Shown here piece by piece: positions 21,935 through 63,547 of a stretch of DNA of 64,000 bases. The stretch's first letter is position 1; each line of letters opens with the position of its first letter. The position numbers and the translations under genes are program-made. The notes beneath the pieces were generated by a model. The model was given only the letters and a program-made list of their open reading frames with translations, was not told where the DNA came from and ran no database searches. Source of the stretch: Isoetes taiwanensis (Eukaryota; Streptophyta; Lycopodiopsida; Isoetales; Isoetaceae); NCBI GenBank assembly GCA_021234155.1, contig JAJEKV010000005.1, positions 17,096,089 through 17,160,088 of the forward strand, read 5' to 3'.

Positions 21935-22558
21935 ATGGCGCATTCTGGTCCCTTAGAAGAGGTTTTTGCAGCTGAAGCAGATCTAAAGACGCCGCTGTAT
22001 GATTTTCATCTGGAAAATGGGGCAAAAAGATGGTTCCATTTACGGGATGGAGCATGCCGCTTTTTATATAAGGATACAATAATCAACTCGACATTAAATT
22101 GTCGTCAGAATGCAACCCTGTTTGATGTTTCTCATATGTGTGGCCTCACTTTGAAAGGGCAGATGCAGTTCCGTTTTATTGAAACACTGGTGGTAGGGGA
22201 TATTCAAAGCCTGAAGGATGGAACTGGAACCCTTTCTGTCTTTACCAATGAAAAGGGTGGATCAATAGATGATTCTGTGATTACCAAAGTGAAAGCTGAT
22301 AATATATATCTTGTAGTCAATGCAGGCTGTAGGGATAAGGACCTGGCACATATTGGCAAACATCTTGAGTCCTTCAAGGCATCTGGCAAAGATGTTACAA
22401 TGCATGTCCATGATGAGAGGTCCTTGCTTGCTCTTCAAGGGCCGATTTCTCCCTCTGTATTGCAGAAGCTAACTGAAGAAGATTTAAGTGCACTGTATTT
22501 CAGTGAATTCAAGCAGTTTAAAATCAATGGTTTTGATTGCTTTGTTACCAGAACAGGG
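21935..22558 (+). pseudogene. glycine-cleavage T protein (aminomethyltransferase), 5' gene fragment
   Basis: The frame has [79 protein letters not shown] and CFVTRTG, all strong matches to plant T protein. T protein is the folate-binding aminomethyltransferase of the mitochondrial glycine decarboxylase complex. Between 22022 and 22070 the text reads [13 protein letters not shown] instead of the conserved KMVPF-GWSMP. The conserved peptide is present in another frame, so two compensating indels occurred. The frame ends at a canonical donor (AGG|GTATGT, 22559) where an intron is expected, but a LINE lies downstream and no later exon is seen. No clear transit peptide precedes it. It is an unprocessed, truncated duplicate and not a working gene. 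Confidence 0.88.
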
Positions 22559-22740
22559 TATGTTTTTCCTTTTTGCTGTTTTTTTTGAAAATATGTAGTA
22601 GATGCCAAGATACACTAGGCTGTTACAGTGATTCCCATAAGATACACTAGGTTGTTACAGTATGTTCCATATGTTGGTCCTTGATTTAACATACAAGTAC
22701 TTTGAAATATGGTATTTGTGAGGTATGAGTGCCTATTGAT
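22559..22740 (+). other. beginning of a retained intron of the T-protein fragment
   Basis: It begins GTATGTTTTTCC after the exon. It contains a local duplication of AAGATACACTAGG(C/T)TGTTACAG at about 22607-22630 and 22639-22661. It is overtaken by LINE sequence downstream. Confidence 0.5.
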
Positions 22741-35580: not shown

Positions 35581-38500
35581 CTAATAGGTCATCCGACTTG
35601 ATAAGCACAATTGTTGACAATTGTTGCATTTTAGTACATAGAAATCTACCCCTTCATCATTCCCTTCTTCAGCATTTACAGCAAAATTGTCACCAACTTC
35701 TATCATGGAACTCATTAGACCATCTTCATCCTCCTCTTCTTCTTCCTCACCATCATACTCGGCTTCATCTTGCAGATCAGTGCCATCACCTATACTCTTA
35801 GGCTCTTTCAACTTCAGCTCAATCTTTTCCCAATCACCTATTCGACTCATACTGATGCATTTATCCCACTTAAATTGAATGCAGTAGTTGCAAAAGCATG
35901 ACAAAGTTCTATGAGCTACCTTCAAAGAATTCTCCTTGTCACATGGTCTTATCCAATGTAGCTTTGTTGTTCCCTTTAAAGTATGGCATTCAAATGCAAA
36001 TCGATCTATCTGTCTTTGAAGACTCAATCTCCCAGAAATACCTGTAACAATATGAACTGTAAGTGTTTGAAGTGCTTGAAGTGCTTTACACCCAAATTTC
36101 ATGACAATCAAGAAACTTGCAAATACATTTCAAAGAATGATGAATTACAAAAAAGGCACAGTGGCAGTTCCTTTTAAAGTGAGGCATGAGAATATCTATG
36201 ATCTATCTATATTTGAAGACTCTACATCATAGAAATAATTGTAACAATAAGTCTTTGTAAGTGCTTAGGTGCGTCTGATGTTTGACAACCAGAATTCATA
36301 ACAGCAAGAAAGTTAGCAAGTTTCTAATAAAAGTAGAATTGCAAGTAAACATAGAATTTACCTTTTGATGTCGATGTCGGATGGATGATTTTTGAAAGTA
36401 CCATTGGAGAAATGCAACCACCTCCTTTGCACATTGCAATTTCCAGCCATTATACTTCATTTGCTCTTGAGTTAATATCCTTTTTATAATTTGCTCAGCA
36501 CCATCATGCTCACCTTTGCCATGTGAACTAGCAAAAAAATTCCATAGAAGCTCCTTTCCCATTCTCCCATAAAACCTACCAAGAAAGTGAAAAGGTCTCG
36601 AAGACTTGAACTGTGCAGAACATCCATCACTCCAAAACACATGTTTCTTATATTCAACTCCGATACTTGCCAGCCAATCAGCATGCATTTGTAGACAATG
36701 TTGGACATATTCTGTGTCATGTGTTTTGTCATCACTAATATAGAAATGAGTTTCCTTGACAATACCTTTGAGAGTTTGTTTCCTTCTCTGTTTGGTCTGA
36801 GTCCTTTTTCTTCTTGCATTTCTCTTCCTCTTTCTTTTTTCTTTCTTCTTCTTCTTCTTCTTCTTCTTCTTTCCTTATCCTTCTGTACTGACAAGATTGA
36901 GCTTCCTGTTGGATCTTAAATCCATAATTTTCAGCAAAATCTATAACAGAAACAATGGTATCATCTTGAAGTGTTTCCAAGCATTTCCTGAATTCCTTGG
37001 CTTGCCAATGAGCTCTATAATTATGTGGCACAAAAGATTTCATTGTCTTTGTTGCATGCTCATTAAATTCAAAAGGACTACCAGATTTGTAGGCTAATCT
37101 TGTAACCTTTGCAGGTTTCTTAGATGACTTCAAGGTATTCTTCCTTTGGACTTCTTGCTGCCATGTTAAAGTCAATTGATCAGCTCATAATATGGAAGTA
37201 TACTTGAATCATGCTTTCAGTAGTTACTAAATGCACTTTCCAATATAATTCAAAAGTCATTACCTTTTCAAATACTTTCCAATTCACAATAACAGTATTC
37301 TTCTTATTCCTCTCTTTAGGACATGTTGGTAACCTGCAATACATTATAGCAAACTATTCAAATACAAAATAACATTACAGGTTGAAACAAATGAAACCAT
37401 GTACTCACTTCTTTAAGCCACACTTTGTACAATTTCACATCAGACATGTATGTTTATGCCACTCATCACTCTCATCCTTTTGGCAGACCACCATTCTCCA
37501 ATAGTCACTACTTGATTTGATAGTGTTCTCCTTGGCCATGCAGATCCCACCTGGTCCACATACTTTGCACTTACAGGTACAATCCTTATGAACACCATGT
37601 GGATCTGTCCTCATATTGTTGATGGCCCGCCTTGCAAATTCAAGATGCAAATGGTATTGGCAACAACAAGTCTCCCTTTCTTGAAGTTTTCTTACATAGC
37701 TTGGCTTCAGTTTCTCAAAAGCCTGCTGGGACATCTTTATATTAGGATGTTCCTTCTTGAAAGCAAGGTACAATTGAACCTGAACACAATGGCAGTCATA
37801 AATTTAATTATTTAAACACATAGAGAATGAAAACATTAGTGCATAACATGGTAAATTTCTGGCTGAAACTAATTACCTGTGTCATTTCCAGCAAATGAAT
37901 AGGATGATCAATTTTCTCACCGTTTTCAGTCAAATGCTTCTTCACATGCTTCTTGTAAGGAGAAACTCTAGTATTCTCATCCCAGAACTTCCTCACAATG
38001 GCTATTTCTTCGGGTGAGAATGCATCCTTTCTTTTCTTTCTTTCAAACATTGACCAACGGCCAGCTTCAGACTCTGCAAGTACACGTCTTCTAAATGCCA
38101 TGGCAATACTTTTTCTTGGAACAGATAGAACCCTTGAAAGATGAGATTGATTAATCCCTCCTGTTGAAGATGCTGCCATTTGAAGGGTGCTTTTTCTTGC
38201 TTGCAGGACATCAGTTGTTCTTATCATTTTTTGTGATTGCATTGTGTCTCTAACATTCACAAACAGGCTTTTCATTACAGCCAAATCCCTGGGATCTGGT
38301 ACATCTGCTTGCATAGGCAAATGCTTGTTTCTTTTGAAAAGTCTTTGAAGAACTCTCCCTTTGTCCAAATCCTCAGAAACGTTCCTCACAATATGATTAA
38401 AAGAATCATCTAGCTCTTTTGAGAGTTCTTGCAATCTTCTTTGACTGAGCCATCCTCTTCTCTTCTTATCATTTGGTGGACTGTTTTCCTTTTCCCTTTC

Positions 38501-38694
38501 TTCATTCTCTTTCTCGATTCTCTTTTCCTTCTGGCTTCAAATTCCAGATAAATTTGTCTATTGTGATCATCGATGCTTTCGGAATTGGCAGTAACATGAT
38601 AGTTTAGAGAATTGGAATTGGAATTGGGATTGGGATTGGGATTTTGATTGGAATGGGAATTGGAATCGAGAATTGTCCGTGAGCTCTCAGCCAT
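35581..38694 (-). pseudogene. transposase of the 5.5-kb element, multi-exon, with D/D/E-like core
   Basis: It starts at 38694, 250 bp inside the right TIR. N-terminal parts: low-complexity Asn/Pro, a basic stretch, then LSRVLSVPRKSIAMAFRRR (helix-turn-helix-like). A GT-AG intron (about 37876 down to 37776) leads to LAFKKEHPNIKMSQQAFEKL and the Cys cluster CTCKCKVC. The core has VSVIDFAENYGFKI (candidate first Asp), HVFWSDGCSAQFKS (second Asp) and ASSHGKGEHDGAEQI (candidate Glu). A Glu/Lys-rich insert encoded by GAA repeats (36790-36870) separates the first two. The C-terminus has CFCNYC and a long acidic run. A TGA at 37435-37437 and a frame shift near 38430-38520 are defects unless spliced out. 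I cannot place it in a named superfamily. Confidence 0.7.
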
Positions 38695-38914
38695 GACAAC
38701 TTAGCTTGGGAAGAATGACAATCCAAGAAAGAAAACTTTCCTCCAGAGATCCCGCCATCCAAAGATCCCGTTCGCGAACACATCCATGTCATCGATCCCC
38801 CTCACTCCGGAACATGCATACTATTTCTGGAGTAACAACCCCCCGAGGTCGTTGAGAAAAAATTCATCGAGCATGCACCACCTAAAGCACCTAAAGCACT
38901 TGTCCGGAAGGTGC

Positions 38915-38944
38915 TTTTTGGGTAGCAGAACCATATTTACACCC
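38915..38944 (-). repeat. right 30-bp terminal inverted repeat
   Basis: Exact inverse of the left TIR. It is followed by CTGT, the right copy of the target duplication. AAAGCACCTAAAGCACTTG lies just inside. Confidence 0.92.
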
Positions 38945-38948
38945 CTGT

Positions 38949-39223
38949 ATTCTTTTTAGCTCTCTATCCTTCTCCTCTACTGTTTCTAGCTCTTTATTCC
39001 TTCGCCAGAATCGTGGATGAACTATGGCAGTAGCTTCCAAGAGCTCATCTCGTGGGAAGCGCTCTCTAATTTCATCTGAAACTGTTGCAGCTACCTCCTT
39101 AAGGTTTTCTCTCACCTTTGTAATAATGCTTTCTAGATCAGTTTTAGGAACAGGTGCTCTCCTTACAAGTTGTCCACGAATTCGATGTTTTGGAGAATAC
39201 ATCTGCATGTGGTGCATAATCAA
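38949..39223 (-). pseudogene. hAT transposase relic, part upstream of the transposon insertion
   Basis: The frame reads YSPKHRIRGQLVRRAPVP, VSDEIRERFPRDELLEATAI, VHPRFW and EEKDRELKRIQ up to the insertion site. VHPRFW-like and DELL-like motifs fit the middle of plant hAT transposases, where a conserved helix precedes the C-terminal domain. The sequence resumes at 33444 in the same frame. Confidence 0.55.
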
Positions 39224-39259
39224 GTAAGATAATATTGATATTTACTATTTAAAAACAGT

Positions 39260-39809
39260 CATTAGAGGTAATTTGAGATCTCCTTTTGTCCCCATAAGAA
39301 TCCTCCAATAGAATGAGTACTCTACATCAAACTGCAATTAATGCAGCATTAACAACTTCATTGCTGTCATTTTTTCCCTATAACTTTTGATCTACTCATG
39401 AAAATGCTGCGACGTTTGTTGCATTAGATGCAGAATGAAAAGATCTTTCAAGTGATATATGGTTATGATGTATTTCAATACAAGCCATATGTGTTAACCT
39501 TAAAAAATATGGTTTTTTGCTCTTTTCTTATATATTTACATCCCAAAAGATATAACAATGGTTGTCATTAGAAAGATCTTGAGGAGACGAATCCATTGCC
39601 ACAAATAGTGTTCGAATCGGAGTTTTTGATCAAAAGTTATAGTAGAAAAATGACACTGCAAAAGTTAGTTAGAACTGCATTAACATCATCGCTAATCTTT
39701 GGAATAAAATACTTTGGAACTCTTCTCTTATTGGACAGTTTAAAAAGCTGATGTGGCTTTTTAAGCATCCCTTAATGGGACAAAATGAGATCTCAAATTA
39801 CCTCTAATG
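39260..39809. repeat. ~550-bp foldback element (long inverted repeats)
   Basis: The left end ATTAGAGGTAATTTGAGATC (39261) is the inverse of the right end GATCTCAAATTACCTCTAAT (39789-39808). The arms continue inward with gaps: TTTTGTCCC, then TGTCATTTTT and CTATAACTTTTGATC on the left match GGGACAAAA, AAAATGACA and GATCAAAAGTTATAG on the right. It is noncoding. The target duplication is unclear. Confidence 0.8.
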
Positions 39810-40184
39810 GGGTTGTACCGATTGTTCGCTCTAGGTTCCTGAGGATATTTGTGGTCGTGCCTCCTTGAAGCGCGGTCACCAAGTCTTCGATCCTCCTTTC
39901 TGATGTATAGGCCGCACATCGCCAATTAATCGCCGCCTATAGGGGATCTTTTGAAGTCAAGATGCTCAATGCTATTGTTCTCTTGACGAGGATGACATGG
40001 TCGACGCGTTTGGGGCCATAATGAGCATGACTTAGAATCTCGAGAGAGCAATGAGCATGAAAACTCCTTCTTCACCCGTGGGCTGAATTGGATTGTATAA
40101 CCCGCTATTCTTCCATCTAGGAGCAAGGGAGGTAGAACCTAAGGGCTTTGTCATGCGCCTCTTCACCCGATATGAAGGCTGCTG

Positions 40185-41244
40185 CTATTTCTTCGGAGTA
40201 CTCATCAACGGTATTTCCACCATCTCTCTGTAGTCACGGTACATGGAATGTGTCAGGTTGATGCTTCTTTCAGCTAATGCTGGTGCCGATGCCGATGTGC
40301 TAGGTAGGAGTGCGGACGTTGATTTTCCCTTGATTCCCATGCGCTCCTGTATTGCCAAGAACTCCTCTTCCGATGGCAACTCTCGCTCAGCCATCATCTG
40401 TCTGATGCCGATGTAGGCTTCAATATGTGTCGATGTCTAGCCGGTGTATGTTCTGGCTTCCCTTATGCTGATGGGAAAGTTCTGAGTTTCTCTGTCGATG
40501 AAGTCGTCGAGATCAGGGTCTTGTCGTAGGAGATGCAGAAGTTCATCTACCCTGTAGCCCCTATCTTGGCACTCTGGGAGGTTCTTGATATCATGGAGGC
40601 TTAAGTATGCCTCTCCTTGTATAATCACTAGGGTCAAGCTTGTAATTCCTTGCCCAAGTGGTGGGGCTATTCTTGTGGCCCTGAGCCCTTCTTCAAAACT
40701 TTGGAGTTGCTGCTCTGCTTGTTGTCTTTCCTGCACTAAGTCGATATCTTCTGTATCCGACTCGCGTTCTTCTTCTTCTTCCTCTGCCTCCTCGCATGCA
40801 AGGCGCATTTGTTCTTCTTCAGCTGCTGCCATGGCCATTGGCTCTATGTCTAAGGGTTGCACAGATGGTTCTCCTATCTGGGTTTGGGCTCGAAGAGATA
40901 GGAAAATAGCTACGGCTGCATTGTAAGAAAAGTGTCTCCTCCTATTGGCAGATATGGACATGTAATTAGGTAAGCGACTAACCTTGTTTTCTAGGTACTT
41001 ATCTATGTTGGGTATGTCTTGCAGTGCTATCTTAAGGGCAATGCTTGGTGCAAAATATCCTATGCAAGGTGGGAGCTCTACTAAAGAAGGTCCTATCTTG
41101 GCATGGAACTCGAACATAATGTCTTGGTAGAAAGGGGTGGCATTGATGGTGGCCTCCACATCAACCTCCTTCCGGAAGATGGCTTAAGACAGAGTTGATG
41201 TCGGCCTCGGCCAAGATGAGCTGTGGCAATAACCTTTGTACCAT
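40185..41244 (-). pseudogene. Glu-rich ORF with one amber stop, unknown function
   Basis: From 41159 a 240-residue frame runs to a TAG, and the same frame then continues without another break to 40185 (ending EMVEIPLMSTPKK), so a single nonsense change splits a 325-codon ORF. A likely original start at 41244 (MVQRLLPQLILAEADINSVL) is separated by one frame shift. Parts seen: TPFYQDIMFEFHAKIGPSLV, RRRHFSYNAAVAIFLSLRAQ, a Glu/Ala-rich coiled-coil-like stretch, and RVDELLHLLRQDPDLDDF. No family is recognised and no histone similarity is seen, although it shares promoter style and spacer repeats with the H3-like gene next to it. It could be a TE-encoded protein. Confidence 0.5.
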
Positions 41245-41377
41245 TGCCTAAATGCAATTGGTTGCCATGGTCTATGAGCAGTTGCGGATATCAAACAGAT
41301 GGGAAAGCGCCTTAGGGGCCTGGAAAATCGGCTTGGAGTGAGGAGCAAAGGTGTAGGATGCAATTGAGGGTTGTGGT

Positions 41378-41388
41378 CTACTTATAGG
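41378..41388 (-). promoter_or_regulatory. TATA-like element upstream of the Glu-rich ORF
   Basis: The minus strand reads CCTATAAGTAG about 135-145 bp before the candidate start at 41244. It closely resembles CCTATAAATAG upstream of the H3-like gene, and AAACCCTAAAA lies just upstream of it. Confidence 0.5.
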
Positions 41389-41559
41389 CAAAACCGTAAT
41401 TTTAGGAAATTTTAGGGTTTGGGGAAAACCTATGATTCTAAGGTATTACTATACAAAAGACAAGTTAATCATGTAAGAAGTGCATCCTAAGAGTCCTATT
41501 GCAATAAATTCCATCTAATTTGGTGAAAGTTAGGCCAAGTTAGGACAATTTAAGTGTGA

Positions 41560-42060
41560 CCACTCACCAAAGTCTTGCCGAGGAGCACTTTTGAGCATGG
41601 GCAAAAATGGTCCAAAGCACTCTGTGAGAGTTTGGGTCAAAGATGATGCCAAACATGCAAACTAAGGATAGAATCCTGCATATCTTGTCGAGATAGGTGG
41701 GATTGTGTCCTTACTTGCTTCATTTGGACAAGTTTTGGCCTAGATCAGTGCTCGACCACTCACACAGTGTGTGGGGAGCACTTTTGAGCCTGGACAAAAT
41801 TGGTCTGGGCGCACTCTGTGAGGGGTGGGGCTCCGTTTGAGTTTGGGTTGGCCAATTTATACAATCTAAGGGTCAAATCCTACTAAACAAAGTGAGTTGA
41901 GTCGAATGGTGTCCTTATTTTCTGCATTTGGACAAGCTTTGGCATAGATCAGTGCTCGACCACTCACACAGTGCGCGGGGAGCACTTTTGAGCATGGTCA
42001 AAATTGGTCTGGGTGCACTTTGTGAGGGGTGGGGCCAAAAACACTGAGTTTTGCTCCAAA
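41560..42060. repeat. three ~200-bp spacer repeats between the two ORFs
   Basis: Copies start near 41562, 41757 and 41959. Each has GACCACTCAC, then GGAGCACTTTTGAGC, AAAATTGGTC or AAAATGGTCC, and a CACTCTGTGAG/CACTTTGTGAG block. Copies 1 and 2 also share a tail with GTGTCCTTA and GGACAAG(T/C)TTTGGC. Related copies occur upstream of the H3-like gene (46515-46830). Confidence 0.8.
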
Positions 42061-42171
42061 TTTGTTAATTTCAAATGCAGAACTTAGTAATACACCCTAC
42101 TTAAACATGATTTAACACATTACTTCAACAAAATCATAAATTTGTATTTAGAAAAATTATTTACAACAGAC

Positions 42172-43275
42172 TTAATAGTATTCCTTCTTTATGTATTTAG
42201 CTAGCTTCAAGTCCTTGGGCATGCATGTCGCCCTTTTGGCATGGATTGCACACGCTACCGAGTCTTCAAAACTTTGTACTACGTGCTGCTCGGCTGCCTT
42301 CTGGAGCGCTAGTAGCATGTCATCCATGATCCTCTTTGTGTTGTCGAATTCTTGTAATATTTCGCGAGTGAGTCTCGCGAAGGGGTTGATATCAAAAGTC
42401 CATAGCTCCTCTGGAAATGTCTGATCTCCCGAGCAGCTCTGGAAAAATGTGAGTCAGCCTTTCTTCTAATCGGCTTTCTCGGGGGTGCTGGTTTCTCTGG
42501 GGGCGGCTTTAAGGTGTCCTTCGTCGGCTGTCCTCCCTCCACATAGGCTACCCTGCTTGAGTACGTATGATTCCCGCTGCGGTCTCGACTTCTTCTTGTC
42601 TTGTGCCGGGTGCCTCTGCTACCTACTCCTCCTCTTCATTTGCTGGGTTCGAGGGTCTCGAGCCCTCCCCCGGGGCGGGAACCCCTATCTCCTCATTCGA
42701 CTCAGTGTCAGATCAGGATGGAGGCCTATCGGGCTGTTGCTCCCGAATGACGACTCCTTTGGCAGGAGTTGTCTTAAGCTTCCTCTTCGTATCCTTTGGC
42801 AGTATGGGGTCTTTCCCCTTGTCTGCCCTCAGCTTTGCCCGCTCCTCCCGTCGCTTTCTCTTCTCCTCCTTCTTCTGCTTCCTTTCCTCCCTCTTCTTGC
42901 GCCTCTCGTCCTTTTCCCTGCGGCGCTCCTCCTTTGACTTCTTCTCCTCTGCTTGCTCGCCATCCCTCTTCCTCTTCTTGGTCTTCTTGTCGAGCTTTGC
43001 AAACTCCCTCTCAAGCTCCCTCCTTAGCTCTCCTCTGCTGCTTCTTCATCTGCAATTTCCTCTGCTCTCTCTTCAAGGTCTTGGGGGCGCTCCTCCTCCT
43101 GGTGCTCTTGGGCCTCCTCCTCCTGACGCTCCTGGGCGTCTGTATTGGGTTGAGCCTCCTGCTCCCGCTCGGCTCGCTCCTGAGCCTGTCGGGCCTTCTG
43201 TTGAGCGGCTAGCTCCTGGGTGCTCACATAACCAAGGGGCATTACCTTGCAGGCGGTCTGTTTGGTGCGGGACAT
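42172..43275 (-). pseudogene. histone H3-like protein with a long charged linker between H3 tail and histone fold
   Basis: The start codon at 43275 opens MSRTKQTACK, which matches the H3 N-terminus (ARTKQTARKS after Met removal). A Gln/Glu/Arg-rich helical stretch follows. A frame change near 43030 leads to a Lys/Glu/Arg-rich stretch ending at a stop at 42713. After another change of frame comes PPRKPIRRK, then REIRHFQRSYGLLI. A one-base shift near 42385 restores INPFARLTREILQEF, DDMLLALQKAAEQHV, SFEDSVACAIHAKR and ATCMPKDLKLAKYI, ending at TAA (42172-42174). The second half matches H3 alpha-N through alpha-3 (REIRRYQ, PFxRLxREI, ALQEAAE, FEDTNLCAIHAKR, MPKDIQLAR). The total is about 367 codons, against 135 for canonical H3. 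Three frame breaks make this copy a pseudogene, unless small introns explain some of them. Reading it as one gene is inference from order, strand and spacing. Confidence 0.8.
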
Positions 43276-43376
43276 ATTTTGGTTTGAAGCAATCCGAGCT
43301 CCGGCGCCTAAAAATCGTCTTCTGAGACGAGCTCTTTGCTAGAGGCGCTGAGGACAAATGAGGAACCCTAATTTTC

Positions 43377-43384
43377 TATTTATA
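43377..43384 (-). promoter_or_regulatory. TATA box of the H3-like gene
   Basis: The minus strand reads CCTATAAATAGAAAA, with TATAAATA centred about 100 bp upstream of the ATG at 43275, preceded by AAACCCTAAACCCTACC. Spacing and sequence suit a plant RNA polymerase II core promoter. The LINE at 43432-46480 begins about 50 bp upstream and would separate it from distal elements. Confidence 0.65.
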
Positions 43385-43431
43385 GGTAGGGTTTAGGGTT
43401 TGGACTTGCATTTCCATATTAGGCCAATCTA

Positions 43432-46400
43432 GAAGGAAGGAAGGAAGGAAGGAAGTTACTTTTATCGTCCACGGAGACCAATCGGCCTATGGGACCTAAT
43501 ACAAAACGTTGAAGACAAAGGGATTTCGCCCGGATTAAAACCCCAGCCGCAAGGGTTTCGAGGGAAAACCGTGCGCAATCACTGTGACAAACCGTGGGCT
43601 AATCATATAAAATGCGTAAAACATCCCAATATATCTGATCATGCACCACCCCAGAGTGCCTAGTCACGGACTGACCCGAAGCGGGGGCAAAGGTGACTCG
43701 CAGTCAAAGCACCTCTGGATGTATGACCCTGTGGCACGCATCGACCGTGTTCATCAGCAAAATGCAAGGGCACGCCCAGTATTTACTAAAGGAGCCGTGA
43801 TCCGGCCCGTCGGTGAACAACCGGGCAACTCGAAAGTGTGAGACTCATCCTCAATCGGCACCCGCTTGACAAAGACCGACAGAGCCCGTCTCCGGCGGGC
43901 TCCCCAATCCACCGCCCGCCTCGGGATGCGAAGATGGTGGGCACTGCGGCGTAATGGAGGCAATGAGCCCGCAAGGCGGCAGGGCAGGGAACGCAGTAGA
44001 GTTTGGCCCCGCTAACACCGGGTTGATGTGCTCCTTGTAATGGGCCATTTTGACCTGCTCTAGAGCAATGGGGTCCCGTGAGCTTGCCAAGGAAACAAGC
44101 ATCTAGGTACTCCCGCTAGGCCGCCACGACGGGTCACGTGGCGGTATGCGACGATTCAGGTTCTCTCCTGACGCTCCATCCGGGCGAACCATCGATCTCT
44201 CTTACCCTCCAACAGCCCTAAGCGGCACGCGGACTCATGGCCACAAAGTAAGCCAAAAGGAGCCGAGCATCACCCATAGTAACCACTTTCTGAAAATAGA
44301 CGATGTGTCTATCAGGGCTGTCTACCGAAGCGCAAGAATCCAGCTTCCCCGCAGCAGACCGATAGGGGATCAAGGTTTCACCCTGCGCCCAGGCTAAAAA
44401 TGCCTTCTCGACCTGCTCCAAGTCATTCTGTGTCGCTGAAGAGACGCACCGCCCCAAACTCGACCCCGCATGTATGACAGGCTTCAATTTCGCCCGAATA
44501 GATGTGATCGATGGCCCCAATCATATAGCTCGCCTCGGGATCATGGTTCTGCATTGCATAAAGCGCTTTCATTGCCACCTGTAAGCTGATAGACGCCCCA
44601 GCCAGAGCAGGAGGGGAACTCCACCCCTAGGTATTTTGTAGGTGGGCGACGCCTACGTCCGCCCCCATATGTGAGTGCAGGAGGTATGGGGTGACGGAAG
44701 AGGATATGAGAACCACCCCGGTTGGGCATGATTGACGCTAAGCATGTCCAGAGTCTCGACAAAATGTGTCTAGGGCATCCGGTGAGAGGCGCATATCTTT
44801 TACGGGGTGTGGAATGGCCAACATCATCCCCGCATAGATGAGTGGCCCGGATGACACCGTGCAAAAGATGTATGCCATCCCCCATGCTCGATGAAAGCCG
44901 GGGCTCTAACCGATCAATGTAGAGGCCAAAAGTGTCCGCGAGAGGGGCACCCCCGTTCGGACCGACGTCCGGGTAAATGCTTGGCCCGTCGACTGCATCC
45001 CTGCCAAAACAACTCTCATACAACTCGTGATATGGCATTGCGCGGCGGGAATGGAGCCCCAGCTTGAGTCCCTAGCCTACAACTTTTCCCGGGATCAGAT
45101 CAAAAGCCTGCGAAGTCCACAAAGACATAAGTCCAAACGGTGATTCCGCTGTCTTCAATCAGTGCCCGCAGCCGTAAAGATATGGTCAATCGTTGAGTGG
45201 CGGGGTCGAAGCTTTCGCCGCGTGTGGAGACTCCGGCACATCCGTACCCTGCCGGGTCAAATGCCGCCGAGAATGCCACCAGCGCTTTGGCAAATACCGA
45301 ATCGACCATGATCGTCCGTGGTGAATTGGCGGACGGTGTGGGTCGCCTTGTGAATGGGAACAACCCCGCGTTGTGGTCCATTGTCGGGAACCCTCCCGCA
45401 ATGCTCGTTGAATGGTAGTGAGGACCGCACGACAAGCTGCCACGCCCACTTGAGTAACTTCGGCCGCGATACCATCAGGTCACTGCCTTCCATTAGCTAG
45501 CCGTTCTGGGCCCTCCTCAACATCCTCATCCACGAGAACCAATGGGGGCCATCCGCGGGGGTATGGGCGCACGCGTCCCCTGGCGCGGTCATAGAGCTGC
45601 AATCGCTCCCACGCCCGGTGTGATGTCCCCAGGTAGGGGCTGGCTGGCACACTTCCGCGCAAAAGGTTCGAGGATGAGTGTCCAGCAGTCAACATCTCCC
45701 CGATGCTTTAAAGGTACCGCCTTTTTGTGTCCTTCGGGATGGGCGATGCATCGTGGTGGCCTCGCAAGCGCACTGGATCCAGGATGTGACTCGAGCTGCC
45801 GCTATGCTTTACAACCGCGATCAAACCATCGGGTTACGCGGGAATGTTGTTTGACCCCGAGCGGCTTAATGGGGTCTGCTAAAGCACACCTCGGCCCCCG
45901 CGATCCCGGGTGAATAGCGGGTCACCGGTCTGGCTCACGCTTCTAGTGTGGAGGTCCGCAGAGACTACCGGGAGGGCGTTTCATGAGCATCTGGCCAGTA
46001 GTCCTCGCGCTCGCTCATAATCGAAGTCTCAAATCGAGGACGCGAGGGGCTGGTATAGTGGGGCTCCCTCCGCTGCTCGCCAAACCAGGTCCAAAAAAGT
46101 GGGAGGTGATCCGAGTCGACCTCCTCATCCCCATATCTGTGCCCCCGGAACGAATCGATGAGATGCATATCTTGGCAAGAACTACAAGCACATAGTCCAC
46201 CACACTAGGCCATCTCCCTCGATTGTCCTCGTCGCATGTGCACTTGGCGGTGAATCGGGCCTTGCGGAAAGGCCATTGCAAATTATCAAGTCAAAATGCC
46301 ACATAGCAGGAGCAACCGTCACAAAGCGAGTGGACGGCTGTCATCCGACTCCGCGGCGGGCTACTTATGGGGGCGTGAAGCCACGCAGGACATAAAACCC

Positions 46401-46480
46401 GAGGGGTCAAGTCGCATGGGCTGCTCTACCCTGTCCGAGGCATTGAAATCTCCAAGAAGGAGAAGGTATTAGTGTAGATA
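43432..46480 (-). mobile_element. LINE copy 3, GC-rich, 5'-truncated, with (GGAA/TTCC)n tail
   Basis: On the minus strand it starts inside the endonuclease with GDFNASDRVEQPM (about 46440), then VVDYVLV, IDSFRGHRYGDEEVDSDHLP (the SDH catalytic motif, near 46130), the RT entry region with PRTIMVDSVFAKALVAF (45310), LRALIEDSGITVWTYVFVDF (45130), LADTFGLYIDRLE (44920), HLCGDDV in place of YADD (44830) and KYLGVEF (44620). The 3' signature (TTTTCCCTCGAAACCCTTGCGG, CCCATAGGCCGATTGGTCTCC, TGGACGATAAA) is followed by TTCC units (43432-43455). Many frame breaks; HLCGDDV lacks the Tyr of YADD. It was inserted just upstream of the H3-like gene promoter. Confidence 0.85.
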
Positions 46481-46514
46481 TGAGGAGTACATTAGGGTTT
46501 ATTTAGCCAAAAGC

Positions 46515-46830
46515 ATCCACCACTCACACAAAGGCGCGAGGAGCAGTTCCGAGCATAGGCGCACTGGTCTGCAAGCACTCGTGAGGGGTCACCTCTTTTG
46601 GGTCTAATTTTCAATTTACAATGGGTTTCTTGGTGTTTTAACATGCAAAACTAGCTAGAACCTAAATAATAAGCTGAACTGCACTGTTAGATTAGCTAAA
46701 TTATGCATCTAACTAAGTCAACATGGGTCCACCACTCACACAATGGGGAGCAATTCCGAGCATGGGCAAAATTGGTGCATGCACTCGTGAGGGGTCACCT
46801 CTTTTTGGACAATTTTGGTTGGGTTTTCGC
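46515..46830. repeat. two more spacer repeats, upstream side of the H3-like gene
   Basis: Copies near 46517 and 46730 share CCACCACTCACACAA, GAGCA(G/A)TTCCGAGCATAGG or GGG, and GCACTCGTGAGGGGTCACCTC. They are related to the 41560-42060 copies. Without the LINE, the two groups would lie roughly 1.4 kb apart on either side of the H3-like gene. Confidence 0.75.
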
Positions 46831-46873
46831 TAAAACTTAATACTAACTTAGCATTAACCTATTTACTACACTA

Positions 46874-46899
46874 GAAATTGGAAAAAAATTTCCAATTTC
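46874..46899. repeat. perfect 11-bp palindrome with AAAA loop
   Basis: GAAATTGGAAA is followed by AAAA and TTTCCAATTTC. It lies at the edge where similarity to the long LTR family begins. Confidence 0.85.
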
Positions 46900-48390
46900 G
46901 AGGTTCCTGCTTGGGTGGCTATTTCCCAAGGCTTGAAGTCTACTGTTAGTCCTATGGGAAGCATGAACAAACATGAGCACATAACACAATATAACAATAC
47001 AATCACCTCGAAGGGTGAAACATCATATCCTCATCAATATAACAACATCAACATGAACAATAACAAACAGAGGAAATTCCTACCCGGTGGCTCGGACTCA
47101 AGGGTAGGATGGTGGCTTGGGCCTCGAAGTCATCGCAGGGCGGTAATTCATGGCACATGGATTTGGCTGGCATAAGAACATGGCTAAGGGTAGTCCACTC
47201 CATCCGCCCCTCCTGTGCACACTTTGCAGATTGGATTGAAAAGTGTTGGGACCGGACCGTAGCCTGCCAGGTGCATAGCCAAAAGGGCTACTACTGGGTT
47301 GCATCTCCCCAGCCCTGATGAGGCAGAAAGAGAGTCGCCTCTCCTCTAGGGGCTTCCATGCCCAACACAGGTGACTAGAGGGCCACTGCCCTTATTCGAC
47401 TTGAACCCAATGGAGAGTGACGCATCACTCCACGGGTGTCGAGCTCATGCCTTGCCCACACACAGTGGCAAGCCATTAAGCCTAGTCCACAGGGATCCCT
47501 GGTAGGCTTTACACACCAGAGGGATCGTTCTGTGTTGGGACAAGTACCCCATTGTTCTGCCGGTCTGGCCCCTCAACCCACAACCCAGTGGGCTCCTGTG
47601 CACAGGCCACAAGTAATTGGGAACTAGTAGGCTACCTAGAATCATCTGCTACACAGGCTTTAGGCCTCTACCCCCCTTCCCAATACATGGAGATCACAGA
47701 GTGAAATACCAACATCATCACAGAACTGAAATGAATAATATCATCTAAGCTACCTACCTAAACACCTAGAGTTAGGTTCATTCGTTAGGGCTTATGATCT
47801 TGGGATCTACAAGGTCTCTATGGCTGAATGAATATGCTAAACTACCTTATTGCCTAGCCCAAAGGCATGCTTTGCACAATAGAAAGACTCGATTACTGGT
47901 CCTTGACTGCGCCCCCGATCCTCTGAATGCATCCATGTCTCCGATCTTGTCGAAGATGGCTGCTACTCGACGATCTGTTGTGCAAAGCGGCTTTACAGAG
48001 CCTAGCAATGCGAATTTGGTTCCTAGCTTGGCCGGAATGGCTAAAGGGAACCCCAAATGCGAGATGGGGAAAGGAGCTCAAGGGAAACCCTAAATGCAAA
48101 GAGAAGAAAAGGTTTAGGGTTTAAAGGGAAGCCCTTATATAGAAACCTTTAGGGTTAGGTTAAACATTAGCAAATGGGGTTTAGCCATTTGGCAATGGGG
48201 TCCATGGGGTTTATAATTGTGTATGTTTATTTAACATGCACAATATTCGAAGTTGCCCCCCTTAGGTGCAACTCTTGCCCCCTAGGTGCAACCTATTACG
48301 GCCACCAAGTACATGTCATCTGTGACATGTAGGGGTGACGTGGCAGTATAATATACGTATTCGGGGCGTATATTATGCTGGAACGTCACA
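46900..48390 (-). mobile_element. LTR D, fourth copy of the long-LTR family
   Basis: On the minus strand it starts TGTGACGTTCCAGC at 48390 and contains ATACGTATATTATACTGCC. It aligns downstream with LTRs A-C (TGGGTTGCATCTCCCC near 47300, GGCTCCTGTGCACAGGCC near 47590, CTCTACCCCCCTTCCCAAT near 47670). Its far end is indistinct: no CGTCACA terminus, target duplication or primer site was found, so it is truncated or part of a rearranged element. It faces the H3-like unit. Confidence 0.75.
48134..48141 (-). promoter_or_regulatory. TATA-like element in LTR D
   Basis: The minus strand reads TTTCTATATAAGGG, followed by CCCTTTAAACCCTAAACC. This position in the LTR corresponds to the TATA-like sites of LTR A and LTR B, so it is the likely U3/R promoter of the family. 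Confidence 0.45.
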
Positions 48391-49475
48391 GATGACTTTG
48401 AATCATTTTACTCCTATAGAGACATAAGTTATCAGTCACTTGTAACTGAAAAAATAAAAGAAAATCAAAACTTCATCATTAAGGCTAATGGACATTTTTC
48501 TTAGATAAAGCAAGTTGTCTACTACTTATATTCAAAATTTTAGATCAAAATTCATTTCCGTACAAAAGTTAGAGATTTGATTTGGGAACAGCTTTCTGGA
48601 AACCAATATTGGTTCATAGAAGATAAACAACAGTTTTGACCCTATCATGTTCAAACAACCCTATCTCCCTTCTTAGACCTCGAATTGTGTCTTACTCTCT
48701 AACTCGTGAAGAAAAATACAAAAATAATGAAAATAATGATAAAAATCTTCTTACCGAGACAGTTTCACTCTATCTAACCATGAAGCAAAACATACTTGAC
48801 CCCCTTGCATTACCTAAGCATAACTCTCATAAACGAGAACCAATAGATTTTTAGGTATTTTTTCCATACAAAATGGCTATATATTAACATGTAAGAAGGG
48901 TTTGACTAAATATTGAATCTTTGATTTCATATGAATTTTAAAGCAAACAGTGCAAATGCACCTTTTCTGGTATATCATATGACGACTCTAGTGTTAAAGC
49001 CAAAATGAGAATCCCTTGACATGACAATACAATAAGAGTCTTACTGAGCGGAGGCCTAGAACAAAAAAGTGCTAATTCTTGTCTAAATTCTAAGTCTGAG
49101 CTTCTTATATATATAGAGTAAAAGGCCTTTCTCGGCTCGCTAGTGAAAAAGCAGGTATGTAGGCACCTCAGAGTGAAAAATGCAAGTCTGAAGCAGGGTG
49201 GATTCATGATATGGTGTCTCAATTCTGCTCATTTTTGCACCACAAAAATAGCCCAAAACATAGTTCAAGATTGTGGTTTGTACACACAAAAATTCAAATC
49301 ATTTAGCATTTATGATAGTGCGAAAATAAAATTCCCTCTCTTTGGTATGATATCTTTCTCGAGAATAGGAGCTTTTGAATTTGCCACACAAGCCAGATGC
49401 CATGGAGGCCAAAATAATGTGGACCATCAAAAAATAACCAAAAACATCAAAAAGACCTAAATAGAGATCAATGAG
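48391..49475. other. no gene seen
   Basis: AT-rich noncoding DNA with only chance frames. No TE ends could be matched. Confidence 0.4.
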
Positions 49476-49797
49476 AATAACAGCCAAATCTTGTGGATCG
49501 TAGCTTGTGGATCATAGCCAAAACAGATCTTGTGGATCATAGCCACAAAAAGCAGATTGGGATCATAGCTCTTAGAACCATGGGAAAAGCTTTTGCTATA
49601 TGCAGTGCCGATTTTGTTTCCATTGATTTTTGACCTTGTGAAAAGACCTAAACAGAGACTGCGGAAGCATAGCCAGATCTTGTGGATCAAAGCTGTGGAT
49701 CATAGCATAGAGATTGTCGGATCATAGCTAGAGCTTGCAGCAAAGCTTTTGCTGTATGTAGTGCCGATTTTGTTTTGATTGATTTTCGACCTTGTGG
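49476..49797. repeat. tandem-like array of GATCATAGC phrases with a 158-bp direct duplication
   Basis: TTGTGGATCATAGC and close variants recur at least six times. A longer block AAAGCTTTTGCTATATGCAG, GCCGATTTTGTTT and GACCTTGTG at 49586 is repeated at 49743 with few changes. It lies immediately upstream of the first coding segment of the next locus. Confidence 0.75.
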
Positions 49798-50130
49798 AGT
49801 TGGTTCAATCCTTGGTCTCTTAGATTATCATACAGGGATTTGTTAAAGCATGAGGAAAAGTTTGTGGATCCATTGGAGATGCACAAGTATTGGGGACCAA
49901 AGGTGGAGAATAAACAATCCTATAGACTGAGGGCTCTGAAAAAAGAAAAGAAAGAGGCTTTTCTGAGTATTTACAGGGCAATCCATGAGGAAAGGAATCA
50001 TGTTCAAAATGGGCAGGTTAGTCAAGTTATGGTTGTAGCATGGTTTTTGCATGATGTTAAAGGTAAGGATATAGATTGGTTGAGTTTTTATAAGCATGCT
50101 TCAAAAAAGAGGTCTTCAATGCTAAGGTAA
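49792..50130 (+). pseudogene. first coding segment of a multi-exon locus, function unknown
   Basis: The 112-residue frame contains SYRDLLKHEEKFVDPLEMHK, a helical RALKKEKKEAFLSIYRAI and VMVVAWFLHDVKGKDIDWLS. The last part has the look of a folded domain. Downstream, an exon-like block at 50336-50391 is bounded by TTTCAG and GTAAGT, suggesting a spliced gene running to 54.5 kb. The family is not recognised. The start is unclear because open sequence extends upstream of the first ATG. Confidence 0.4.
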
Positions 50131-57065: not shown

Positions 57066-58387
57066 GAAATTGCAAATTGTTTGCAACTTGTGAAAAACAT
57101 ATTGATAAGAATGATGATCTTTTGATTTTAGATAGTGGAGCAGAAAAGTCAATTGCATGCGCGAGAAAAATCTTGAAAGAATGCAAGGGAACAAATGGAG
57201 GCCATATGCAAGTTGGGAATGGGGATTTGCAAAAAAATAAAAGATGTTGGAGTGTTGGGACTTTTTGATTTGAATGGAAGAAGTGTGAATTTGCAAAATG
57301 TTCTATGTGTGCCAAGCCTTGTTATTCTATTTCCCAACTTGTAGACATGGGATTTAAAGTTGTCTTTGAACAAATGGATTGCAAAATCTATGAAGGGAAT
57401 GAACTCAAATTTTTGGGAAGAAGAGTTGAAAACTTGTTTGGCATAAATGCTAGAAACTTTGAATAATCCATAAATCTCATAACAAAACCTGATATTGAAA
57501 CTTGGCATGAAAGATTGGGATATTCAAATTTCAAAAACATTGAATTCATGATCAAACAGGGATGGATCAAATCAGATATATTGAAGGAGAATCATGTTTG
57601 CAAAGGTTGTTAGTTAGGCAAACATTCAAGATTGCCTTTCACAAAAGGATAAAGGAAAGCTAAAGATGTTCTTGAGTTGATTCATACTGACTTATGTGGG
57701 CCTTTGAATGTGAAAGGAATTACTGGGAAACGATATTTCATAACATTTGTGGATGATTTTAGCAGGAGAACCAAAGTATACTGCTTGAGAACAAAAGATC
57801 TGGCTTATGAAGCCTTCAAAACATTTGCTGCTGAAGCTGAATGTCAAACAGGAAAAATGATCAAGTGTGTACGTTCAGATAGAGGTGGTGAGTATCTCTC
57901 TTACAAATTTAGGAAATATTGCATAAGTAGGGGAATAAAAAGACAGTTCACATGCAGTTATACACCCCAACAGAATGGGGTTGCAGAAAGGAAAAATAAA
58001 TCCATTTTAAATGCTGTGAGATCCATGCTTAAGCATGCAGGTCTATCAAACTTCCTTTGGGAAGAAGCAGTTAAGACTGCTGTGCTAGTGCAAAATGTTC
58101 TACCTACCAAAAGCTTACAAGGTATGTGTCCAGAATATTTGTGGTCAGGAAACATGCCTAACTTTGAAAAATACAGGGTATATGGTTGCTTGGGAAATAC
58201 ACATATTCCAAAGGAAAACAAGCTCAAACTAGATGATAGATCCCTGATTACATATTTGGTAGGGTATGATGAGCATTCAAAAGGTTATAGAATGTATAAC
58301 CTAGAGAAAAGAAATGTTATAGTTAGTAGAGATGTGGTTTTTGTGGAAGGAGAGTTGTACAGACCAAAGACTATGGAAAAGATCTAG
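57066..58387 (+). pseudogene. copia protease and integrase
   Basis: LLILDSGAEKSIAC (near 57120) is the aspartic protease site. WHERLGYSNFKNIEFMIKQG (near 57500) is the pre-integrase region, with a Cys-rich HVCKGC interrupted by a TAG at 57610. The integrase core frame starts at 57677 with HTDLCGP (Asp5), RSDRGGEY (Asp68) and GVAERKNKS (Glu104). The last pair is separated by 35 residues, the DD35E rule. VYGCLGNTHIPKE and GYDEHSKGYRMYN follow. Ends at a stop at 58385. Protease and integrase are in different frames. Confidence 0.92.
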
Positions 58388-58441
58388 AATAATGCCAAAT
58401 CATTAGAGGACAGCAATGCAAATCTGAAAGATACAGCAGAC

Positions 58442-59345
58442 TTGGTTGACAAAGATGATGATGTTATGCAAAATCTGGATACAAATCCCAAGAATGATAA
58501 TGTTAATGAGGGAGAAAACATAGAAGACAATGCAAACAATGAGGAAGACCATGAAAATGAAGAAGATGTAAGGGAAAAACCCAAGAGAAGATCAGAAGCT
58601 GAAAGACTAATGAAGAAGGCTGATTTTGATACTAAGCTTTATGGCAGAAAAGAGGATGGCAGAAGTTCCAGGTTGCAGCTACATGAAAAGGACCCTGAGG
58701 CACTTATAATAATGCAAACAGGAGTACCTGAGACCTTTGATGAAGCAATGAATAGTGTGGATGCAAATAAATTGAAAGAGGCCATGAATGACGAAATAAA
58801 CTCCTTTGATAGGACGTCTACACATATGAATTGGTTGATCTGCCAAAAGGAAAGCAAACAGTAGGAAATAAATGGATATATAAACTGAAAAGAAATGCAG
58901 ATGGAAGTCCTAAATTTAAGGCAAGGCTGGTTGCACAGGGATATACACAAAAGAAAGGCATAGACTTTGAGGAAACGTACTCACCTGTGGTTAAACTAAC
59001 TAGTATCAGGATGGTTATCTCAGTTGCAAATGCATTAAATTTAGATTTGCATCATATGGACGTTTGTACTGCTTTTCTTAATGCTGAATTAGAAGAAGAA
59101 GTCTACATGAGGCAAGCTCAGGGCTATGAAAAGGGCAAAGACAAAGTTTGGAAACTAAACTGAGCTGCTTATGGTTTAAAACATGCCCTAAGACAATGGT
59201 ACATGTGTATCAATCAATATTTGAAAGAGCAGGGTTTTGAAAAATTGAAATGTGTATATTTTAAGAAAAGAAGACAAATTTTGTATAATGGCCATATATG
59301 TGGATGATTGCATCCTAGCTGCTAATTAAACCAATGCAAAGAGAT
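58442..59345 (+). pseudogene. copia reverse transcriptase
   Basis: An acidic linker precedes PETFDEAMNSVDANKLKEAM. A frame shift near 58830 leads to GNKWIYKLKRNADGSPKFKA, RLVAQGYTQKKGIDFEETY and SPVVKLTSIRM, then DLHHMDVCTAFLNAELEEEV and QGYEKGKDKVWKLN with a stop (TGA) where copia normally has K-LYGLKQ. The catalytic AIYVDDCILAA is encoded in another frame near 59293. All copia RT blocks are present; three breaks prevent translation. Confidence 0.9.
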
Positions 59346-59364
59346 TCTCAAAAGGAGATACAAA

Positions 59365-60186
59365 ATGACAGACTTGGGAGAACTGTCTAAATTCTTGGGC
59401 ATACAGGTGAAAAGATGTAGGGAGAAAGGATTGATTTCTCTCTGTCAAAATGATTATATTGATACAGTGCTGGAAAAGTTTAACATGGAGAATTGCAATC
59501 CAGTAAAAGTGCCCATTCTACCTGGAACAAAATTGTCAAAGGACATGAGTCCAAAAACAGATAAGGAAAGAATAAGAATGTCAAAGATACCTTATAGACA
59601 ACTTGTAGGATGCTTGCTCTTTGTTGCAAATAATACTAGGACAGACATAGCCTTTGTGGTGAATAATTTGAGCAGATTTAATAGTGATCCAGGTTATGGT
59701 CATTGGCAGGTTGCAAAGAAAGTGCTGAGATATCTAAAGGGATCAAAATATAAAGGAGTAATGTACAGTACTAAAGATCTGAAAATGAAGGCATATAGTG
59801 ATGCAGAATGGTGTGGAGATGTTGATGAAAGAAAATCAACTTTGGGTTATGTTCTGTTTTTAGGTGGTGGACCTATAAGTTGGAGGAGTAAAAAGAAAAC
59901 TTCTATTGCACTCTCAACTGCTGAATCTGAATATGCATCCACAACTTTGGCAGCAAAAGAAATTGTATGGGCAAGGAGATTTTTAGAAGAACTTGGTATT
60001 AAGCAAGAAGGGAGTACAGTTCTATTCTGTGATAATCAAAGTTGTATTGCAATGACTAAAAATCCAGTTTTGCATGAGAGGACTAAGCATATAGAAATGG
60101 AAATGCACTTCATCAGGGATATGGTGAGCAAGGAAGAAATAAGCTTAAAATACATTTGCTTTAAGAAACAGATAGCGAGGATATAA
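59365..60186 (+). pseudogene. copia RT thumb and RNase H
   Basis: The longest clean frame of the element (273 residues): MTDLGELSKFLGIQVKR, PYRQLVGCLLFVANNTRTDI, HWQVAKKVLRYLKG, AYSDAEWCGDVDERKSTLGY, ISWRSKKKTSIALSTAESEY and LFCDNQSCIAMTKNPVLHER. RNase H catalytic Asp (YSDAEW), Glu (AESEY) and Asp (FCDNQS) are preserved. The ATG shown is internal to Pol. The C-terminus ends slightly early. Confidence 0.93.
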
Positions 60187-62613: not shown

Positions 62614-63547
62614 TCACAACAATGTGTGTTCACTCATCATCACCATCATCATCATCATTATCGACAACATAGGTGGTAAGTTGGCTCGATCCGTTTCTTC
62701 ATCCTTAGGATCTAGAAGGTGAAATAAAGGATGTCCTTTGATAGCATAATTTCCTTTCATTAGTGGGATTCTAACACCACATACTTGTATAGAGTAAACC
62801 TTTGCAGCTCCTTCTTGAGAACATAATTTATAACCTCTCTTTGAACTTGGAATTTTTTTTAAGTAAGTTCCTTCTAATATACTTTCACCTTTTAAGAACC
62901 ATGTTCCATTATCTTTGAAGTCTTTTTCCACTACATACTTCTCTCGTGTACATGCAAGCAACCAAAAGTCATCCCCAGGGGGTTTTTTGTGCGCCCAACG
63001 CAAAGTAATCTCCACATTTGACCCGGTCAGCAATATTAACACCTGAATATAAGGGCCTTTGTAACTTCCTAACCTCAACTGCATCACAAGTAGATGAAGA
63101 AGCAGGTTCAATTTCCACCGGTTCCCAATTATTCCCATATGTTGTATTCTCGCATCCATCCCAATGTTCATCTAAACAAAAACTACAAAAGCATGAGAAT
63201 CTTCGAACCTGTAATTGAGTTGTTGATCCCAAGCTGAATGCATGTACACTATGAATTTTTTGAGTATCCTTCACCATATGTGCTCCCCATTCCTTACGCC
63301 TATCGACTTCTCCTGCTTTAGCTTCCCAAAAAAATCTTTTAATATCTTTCATTTTTGTTTTCGGTTCCTCTTTAGAAGAAACTGTACCAGAAAATAACTC
63401 CTTGGCAGCCTCCACAATATCATGTGCATTCTCTATCTTAGTATCAGGATATAGGAGTTGGATCATTCTGATCCACCTCTTTAATTCAGCAGCCTTGCCA
63501 TCATGTTCTCCCTTTTCGTGATTTGAACCAAAGTAATTCCACATCAT
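62614..63547 (-). pseudogene. second large copy of the 33.4-kb element's transposase, C-terminal half
   Basis: Begins after an AG acceptor with MMWNYFGSNHEKGEHDGKAA, matching LLWNFFASSHGKGEHDGAEQ of the other copy (the candidate catalytic Glu region). AKELFSGTVSSKEEPKTKM and VRRFSCFCSFC (the CFCxxC pair) follow. A frame shift near 63000 joins it to GDDFWLLACTREKYVVEKDF, LEGTYLKK and HPLFHLLDPKDEETDRANLP. This copy preserves a longer C-terminal domain than the 35581 copy. The part with the two Asp motifs should lie upstream beyond 63547 but is not seen. Ends in a CAT-repeat-encoded Met run. Confidence 0.65.

Follow-up and report, generated by a model that had tools for sequence, protein, structure and literature searches.

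A predicted histone H3 fusion protein as the first open reading frame of chromodomain Ty3/gypsy retrotransposons in Isoetes taiwanensis

Introduction

Retrotransposon silencing runs through modifications of histone H3. In canonical H3 and H3.3 (~136 aa) the tail is joined directly to the fold; the elements described here have the fold in common with them, but separate the tail from it or replace the tail. A plant LTR element can carry a host gene, as in Bs1-type transduction, whereas the H3 of these elements is a separate first open reading frame (ORF), is conserved across subfamilies and has a host chromatin role. Some chromoviruses read H3 marks via their chromodomain, and chromodomain elements of lycophytes have been described in Selaginella (PMC3350952). 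The plant and fungal chromoviruses of that paper resemble the Isoetes elements in their LTRs, initiator tRNA-Met-type primer-binding site (PBS), gag, protease, reverse transcriptase (RT), RNase H and integrase, and C-terminal chromodomain; unlike in the Isoetes elements, an H3 ORF is not mentioned in the part of the paper available to us.

The closest parallel that we found comes from fungi, where hAT transposons have captured H3. Those of Pseudocercospora fijiensis and other Dothideomycetes have taken up and amplified host H3 (PMC6710886); they are DNA transposons, their copies are RIP-inactivated, and the available part of the account reports neither a domain fusion nor selection that serves the element. 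The hAT H3L of Pyrenophora tritici-repentis is a full-length H3-like ORF in a likely autonomous element (PMC3538342), again a DNA transposon, whose copies number from about ten to tens, and no tail–linker–fold or domain fusion is described in the available text. The H3 described here sits among LTRs, gag and pol, not with a hAT transposase and terminal inverted repeats. We found no histone encoded by an LTR retrotransposon in the titles and abstract openings among the matches listed by our literature search, whose coverage lay mostly outside the subscription literature. The word 'histone' occurs neither in the main text of a 2026 review on gene capture by transposable elements (PMC13317346) nor in those of the two Isoetes genome papers (PMC8566536, PMC10541799). 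We class the element among the chromoviruses, with the histone ORF as a new module, and found no retroelement precedent for an accessory H3 gene.

A decayed H3 locus in a truncated element

The window is a 64,000-nucleotide stretch of the I. taiwanensis genome. An earlier note, made from its letters alone, had pointed to an H3 tail and an H3 fold joined by a charged linker, and all the motifs it quoted are present on the minus strand between 43275 and 42172. The locus belongs to the subfamily that we call A and consists of the following features.

43387..43401, minus strand: telobox-like motif AAACCCTAAACCCTA 5′ of the H3 ORF, read from the sequence
43376..43384, minus strand: TATA-box-like TATAAATAG, ~100 bp 5′ of the ATG, read from the sequence
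43024..43275, minus strand: H3 tail and start of the linker, MSRTKQTACK, 83 codons and then TAA
42569..43018, minus strand: charged linker in another frame, 67% identity to residues 90–225 of the A copy L029
42172..42490 (start of interval approximate), minus strand: H3 fold in two frames, from PF00125, the frames and tblastn with the A copy L029

The tail, MSRTKQTACK, starts at 43275 and its 83-codon frame ends with the TAA at 43024. The Glu/Lys/Arg-rich stretch (~43018–42569) lies in a second frame, different from that of the tail, and the start of the fold, YVEGG..REIRHFQRSYGLLIS, in a third, with REIRHFQ at 42428–42411. The remainder of the fold, FARLTREI..LQKAAE..FEDSVACAIHAKR..MPKDLKLA..KEYY, continues to 42172 in the same frame as the tail. 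Window positions 42172–42381 match the core histone family PF00125 above the Pfam cut-off (7.5e-15). With its frame changes, in-frame stops and ~83 bp missing relative to other copies, the window locus (43275–42172, minus strand) is a pseudogene, a dead copy. An intron at the ~83-bp gap between many copies and the window copy was rejected, as long-frame copies code through the gap; the window copy has lost this stretch, and so, judging from alignment coordinates, has L021.

The DNA around the locus is a truncated Ty3/gypsy LTR retrotransposon, with the following parts as seen from comparison with the relatives L016 and L017.

46963..48390, minus strand: 5′ LTR, starting with TGTGACGTTCC at 48390; 85% identical across 1449 columns to the L016 LTR, which is A-type, with a boundary common to L016 and L017
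46461..46960, minus strand: leader between the LTR and the H3 ORF, 88–91% identity to L016/L017
43437..46460, no strand: later 3-kb insertion foreign to the element, absent in L016, L017 and L021, which are uninterrupted across the site
39802..41255, minus strand: second ORF (ORF-X), fragmentary, 80% identity over 153 residues to the first part of the L016 ORF-X

The 5′ LTR is without its 3′ end and PBS, and ~226 bp of L017 are absent, as inferred from alignment coordinates. The second part of the L016 ORF-X is represented by three short pieces with 58–62% identity. The left end of the element is truncated at 39802–39810, with homology to L016/L017 stopping at 39810, and gag and pol queries gave no match in the window at E 1e-5.

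Several other observations concern the neighbourhood. The insertion at 43437–46460 contains an open frame (44544–45071, minus strand), and part of it is 74% similar to DNA beside the L017 element (1–1623). The broken element and its flanks (window 37625–50000) are duplicated ~77 kb away with 93–95% identity (L021, G000:C1056:17057001-17066388); the duplicate is without the 3-kb insertion, and as the comparison covered 10 kb the duplication may extend beyond it. Two minus-strand frames at 36299–37184 and 62972–63547 share a similar motif (SHGKGEHDGA and NHEKGEHDGK) without a Pfam match above the cut-off, and perhaps represent an undescribed transposase family. Copia-type remains (integrase core, SH3_retrovirus and RVT_2) lie at 57653–60183 on the plus strand, and an aminomethyltransferase (glycine cleavage T protein) exon at 21881–22585, also on the plus strand (PF01571, 8e-43).

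Copies and subfamilies

We searched the I. taiwanensis genome (1,658,258,908 bases in 1110 contigs). Using the DNA of the window locus, at least 88 pieces were recovered from the best 40 of 948 candidates. A protein search with the A-type fold gave a match at all 150 places scored, out of ~10254 candidates, with 74–100% identity, and 16 of those places have open frames of 438–489 residues without an internal stop. The Pfam histone model likewise scored above the cut-off at 150/150 places (of ~8704 candidates), at least 28 of which have an open frame of 440 or more and ~15 of which score like canonical H3; both candidate totals are rough, unscored figures.

These copies fall into three subfamilies: A, that of the window, with H3 tail, linker and fold; C, with the same plan; and B, with a novel domain in place of the tail. 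Among 18 A copies fetched for their long frames, 16 (L027–L041 and L043) are open from MARTKQT (MACTKQT in one) to the stop, supplying the intact single-frame copies that the earlier note had sought, while the tail is out of frame in L026 and L042. A charged stretch does join tail and fold as claimed there, but in intact L033 the distance from residue 20 to the fold is ~290 residues and not ~200. The 25 long-frame copies from the histone-model list are type B, with the tail replaced by a globular domain. The C copies L063, L064 and L065 start with MARTKQTARK (MARTKQTYRK in L064), followed by a charged linker and the fold, which in L064 and L065 is 62–65% identical to host H3 over 88–91 residues; the match of L063 is longer, extends into the linker and has 45% identity. 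None of these three C copies has tail and fold in one open frame. L066 is an A copy that has lost part of the linker, and many H3-fusion copies in the genome are broken. The element H3-fusion ORFs used here have 388–459 codons, compared to 136 in the host H3 copy L014.

Architecture of complete elements

Complete relatives show the order LTR, primer site, H3-fusion ORF, ORF-X, gag/protease, pol with chromodomain, and LTR; type B has an extra frame between ORF-X and gag. When 10-kb loci were compared, the LTR started with TGTGACGTTC in all six copies read. It ends ~1.6 kb further on with GCGTCACA or ACGTCACA (L019, L017), and in both of these copies the end is followed by GTGGTATCAGAGC or a one-base variant of it, GTGGTATCAGAGC being the usual initiator tRNA-Met primer-binding site. 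Paired LTRs with TG..CA ends were present in 4/4 elements examined, with pair identities of 91.7% (L018/L022), 93.7% (L019/L023), 95.3% (L020/L024) and 96.0% (L016/L025). Three of the four have exact 5-bp target site duplications (TSDs), CTTGC, AAAGT and GTGAC(C), the last one maybe of 6 bp, and the fourth agrees at 4/5 bases (ACTGC versus ACCGC).

Pfam domains above the cut-off comprise Ty3_capsid, Retrotrans_gag and RVP_2 in L020 (8128–9999), and RVT_1, RNase H, H2C2, SH3_Tf2-1 and Chromo (3.3e-9) in the 948-codon frame of L022 (330–3173), where rve is just under the cut-off (30.6 of 32.6 bits). In type A, gag was also found in L016, whose zinc knuckle (PF13696) scored under the cut-off, and Chromo in L025. 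The LTRs and TSDs, the gag/protease, and the order of pol with its C-terminal chromodomain identify the complete relatives as Ty3/gypsy chromoviruses. The earlier note had suggested either a genuine but divergent H3 variant or a histone borne by a mobile element. The relatives support the second, as their H3 fusions sit between the PBS and gag of LTR elements; the copy in the window is itself a pseudogene. Given the LTRs, PBS, TSDs and gag-pol, we rejected a DNA transposon, a Helitron and a giant-virus insertion.

ORF-X (~500 aa) follows the H3 ORF in all three subfamilies, for example at L064 4447–6000 and L066 2–1459 (minus strand). Two ORF-X proteins gave no Pfam match at E 0.5. It is possible that ORF-X is a partner of the histone.

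An A-type integrase query, with 107 of 33586 candidates scored, linked pol to the H3 ORF. Among the 150 A-type H3 matches listed, which alone were used here, one lies 6.1–17.1 kb upstream on the same strand at 10 or more of the 107 integrase places, and none stands in the reverse order. Of the remaining 97 places, we read the upstream DNA of four that were chosen for their long open pol frames, and all four have an H3 ORF, of type A in L066 and of type C in L063, L064 and L065.

Selection and conserved residues

To measure constraint on the H3 fusion, dN/dS was determined by Nei–Gojobori counts among intact copies chosen for long frames, with the A tail taken as 20 codons. Fifteen of the 18 fetched A copies were used, leaving aside L026 and L042, without an in-frame tail, and L043, open from MARTKQT to the stop; of the 25 B copies, 24 were used, L012 being close to L011. 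Pairs with saturated synonymous sites were excluded from the medians, which left 77/105 pairs for the A tail, 60/105 for the A fold, 105/105 for the B1 H3 part and 21/21 for B2. The medians were as follows.

A (15 copies): tail (first 20 residues) 0.050, linker 0.172, pre-fold stretch 0.086, fold 0.054
B1 (15 copies): N-terminal domain 0.107, linker 0.181, H3 part 0.036
B2 (7 copies): N-terminal domain 0.121, linker 0.119, H3 part 0.018

Nucleotide differences in the B1 fold fall at third codon positions in 79% of cases and at second positions in 2%. Pooled pN/pS was 0.25 in the true frame of A compared to 1.32 and 1.35 in the shifted frames, and 0.22 compared to 1.46 and 1.60 in B1. In all 39 copies compared, synonymous sites have reached saturation relative to host H3. 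Choosing copies by open frame removes stops, but should not alone yield such ratios. These data show that the H3-fusion ORF is under strong purifying selection in A and B.

The folds differ in their distance from host H3 L014, with 82–87% identity for B and 48–52% for A. Matches to PF00125 had E-values of 8e-23 (A), 2.5e-29 (C) and 3.2e-42 (B), and those to PDB H3.3 of 8.1e-24 (A) and 6.8e-52 (B). Across 42 aligned rows (15 A, 24 B and 3 C), R69, C110, H113, K115, R116, T118, M120, L126 and I130 are invariant and R83 is kept in 41; we take the kept positions to be DNA and H3–H3 contact sites. The A fold is without R63, K79 and R129, and often without R49, because of which it may not build ordinary nucleosomes.

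A and C keep the tail but have a long linker before the fold, and the N-terminal tail is absent in B. The tail reads ARTKQTARK in most A copies and in two of the three C copies read. In A it has the form M-A-R-T-K-Q-T-x-R and is near-invariant through R8 except A7; K4 is invariant in the 15 aligned copies, and R2 is replaced by C in L028. At the K9 position the 16 in-frame A tails have K (11), I (3), M (1) or V (1), and S10 is replaced. To judge from these residues, the K9I and K9M tails would be natural counterparts of K9M/K9I mutants.

AlphaFold models were poor and give no independent support, with mean pLDDT of 59 for B and 54.5 for the A fold, the latter too poor for a structure search. 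At E 0.001 or better, the PDB matches of the B model were all to nucleosome H3 (four chains, best E 1.1e-5, low TM), and the viral library gave no match. The N-terminal ~190 residues of B (e.g. L018 4494–5057) are conserved, with block-mean pLDDT mostly of 58–87, and the moderate-confidence model of this domain had no fold match in the PDB or the viral library at E 0.001.

Origin of the histone module

To place the H3 elements among chromoviruses, we compared them with more distant relatives. Two more distant chromoviruses of this genome have 48–49% identity to the H3-element pol over RNase H and integrase (pieces L071 and L068), and 54–67% across most of RT. In these two outgroups, read as pieces L072 and L073, the gag frames open 55 and 130 bp past the PBS with no H3 in between, and no H3 match was found in 8.4 kb. 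A third fetched outgroup, L074, gave no H3 match and had no recognised gag frame or primer site on the expected strand, and was left out of the counts. As these outgroup chromoviruses are without H3, the histone module looks derived within one chromovirus clade.

A and B are 78–80% identical in pol and 44% in gag, with one LTR patch in common. For ORF-X, A compared with B alone gave a weak match (hhalign 12%, E 0.0024), which rose to 97% (E 1.1e-10) for A/C against B; C and A are 34–35% identical (E ~1e-28). In an unrooted tree of the fold, support was 100/99 for A, 98/95 for C and a moderate 88/78 for B, and host H3 and PDB H3.3 fall between B and A+C. A single capture fits these comparisons if host H3 is the root, and we infer that the ancestor of A, B and C took its H3 module from a host H3 gene. 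Since the host H3 branch lies between B and A+C, two separate captures are also compatible with the tree.

Discussion

Our data show an LTR retrotransposon lineage whose first ORF is a predicted H3 fusion under selection. The locus in the window is a decayed copy of the first ORF of a chromodomain Ty3/gypsy element. Taken as a whole, the likely reading is that this ORF is of host origin and that its selected H3 fusion acts in chromatin for the element. The fold and the extreme end of the tail are under constraint, and DNA and H3–H3 contact positions are kept, all of which points to real contacts with histone partners; it is very likely that the fusion works through chromatin or histone-binding partners. 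How it would do so is a more tentative matter. The fusion may pair with host H4 or host H3 chaperones and enter host chromatin, where it would mark or tether sites for the element's own chromodomain integrase. The presence of that chromodomain suggests targeting, and we put forward this targeting or tethering form as a plausible, though less than even, proposal. The K9 variants and the missing tail of B suggest interference with silencing. A combined form, with the fusion in host nucleosomes and the H3 tail (A, C) or the added domain (B) either recruiting the chromodomain integrase or preventing H3K9 silencing, appears to us about equally tentative.

The main alternative to targeting is that the protein is directed against silencing, the H3 tail of A and C or the tail-less H3 of B blocking H3K9-based silencing by occupying methyltransferases and readers, or by taking the place of methylatable H3 along the element. 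Tails of the K9M/K9I type inhibit methyltransferases, and the A tail is near-invariant up to R8 except A7 and yet varies at K9; the absence of an N-terminal tail in B is also in line with this. However, K9 is kept in most A and in all three C copies read, so inhibition by K9M or K9I is not a general function, and B and A/C would require separate versions of the mechanism; we rate it somewhat less probable than targeting. Viral histones condense DNA, and the Lys/Arg-rich linker, the kept DNA-contact residues and the position of the ORF 5′ of gag would suit a histone that condenses the element's RNA or cDNA inside the virus-like particle. The conservation of the A tail (dN/dS 0.05) nevertheless exceeds what charge needs, and in reading the elements we did not come across an H4-like ORF; we regard such packaging as improbable.

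The telobox- and TATA-like motifs 5′ of the ATG would suit a host family of H3 or CENH3 genes, divergent but otherwise ordinary and with no tie to transposons, a reading contradicted by complete copies inside LTR pairs with TSDs. The CENH3 fold usually has a longer loop 1, whereas alignment of the A and B folds to host H3 shows no insertion in loop 1, and little credence is left for a host gene family of either kind. Least credible of all is that an H3-tail ORF and a fold fragment lie side by side by accident, which the earlier note had named as what would overturn its claim: the broken frames of the window copy, and nothing else, speak for it, and it is contradicted by the single frame shared by tail, linker and fold in 16/18 long-frame A copies. 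The order of upstream box, tail, linker and fold also repeats elsewhere in the genome, so that the order in the window is not due to chance. Transposons are known to capture H3 (PMC6710886, PMC3538342), and many genomic copies are broken, as would be the case if a host H3 had been captured by chance and amplified as a neutral passenger. Against this, dN/dS is 0.02–0.05 in the histone parts while synonymous sites are saturated against host H3, the ORF is kept across A and B despite 44% identity in gag, and the selection signal depends on the frame, which contradicts neutrality and makes a functionless passenger very improbable.

A chromovirus lineage has here taken over H3, fused it to new sequence and kept it at dN/dS 0.02–0.05. 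H3-like sequences may number thousands in this genome, enough that they could mislead gene annotation and counts of H3. The natural tail variants K9K, K9I, K9M and K9V make manipulation of chromatin testable. If the protein enters chromatin, a mobile element would manipulate the very substrate on which its silencing and its targeting operate, and if the protein is incorporated into nucleosomes, the parasite would write part of the chromatin that it reads.
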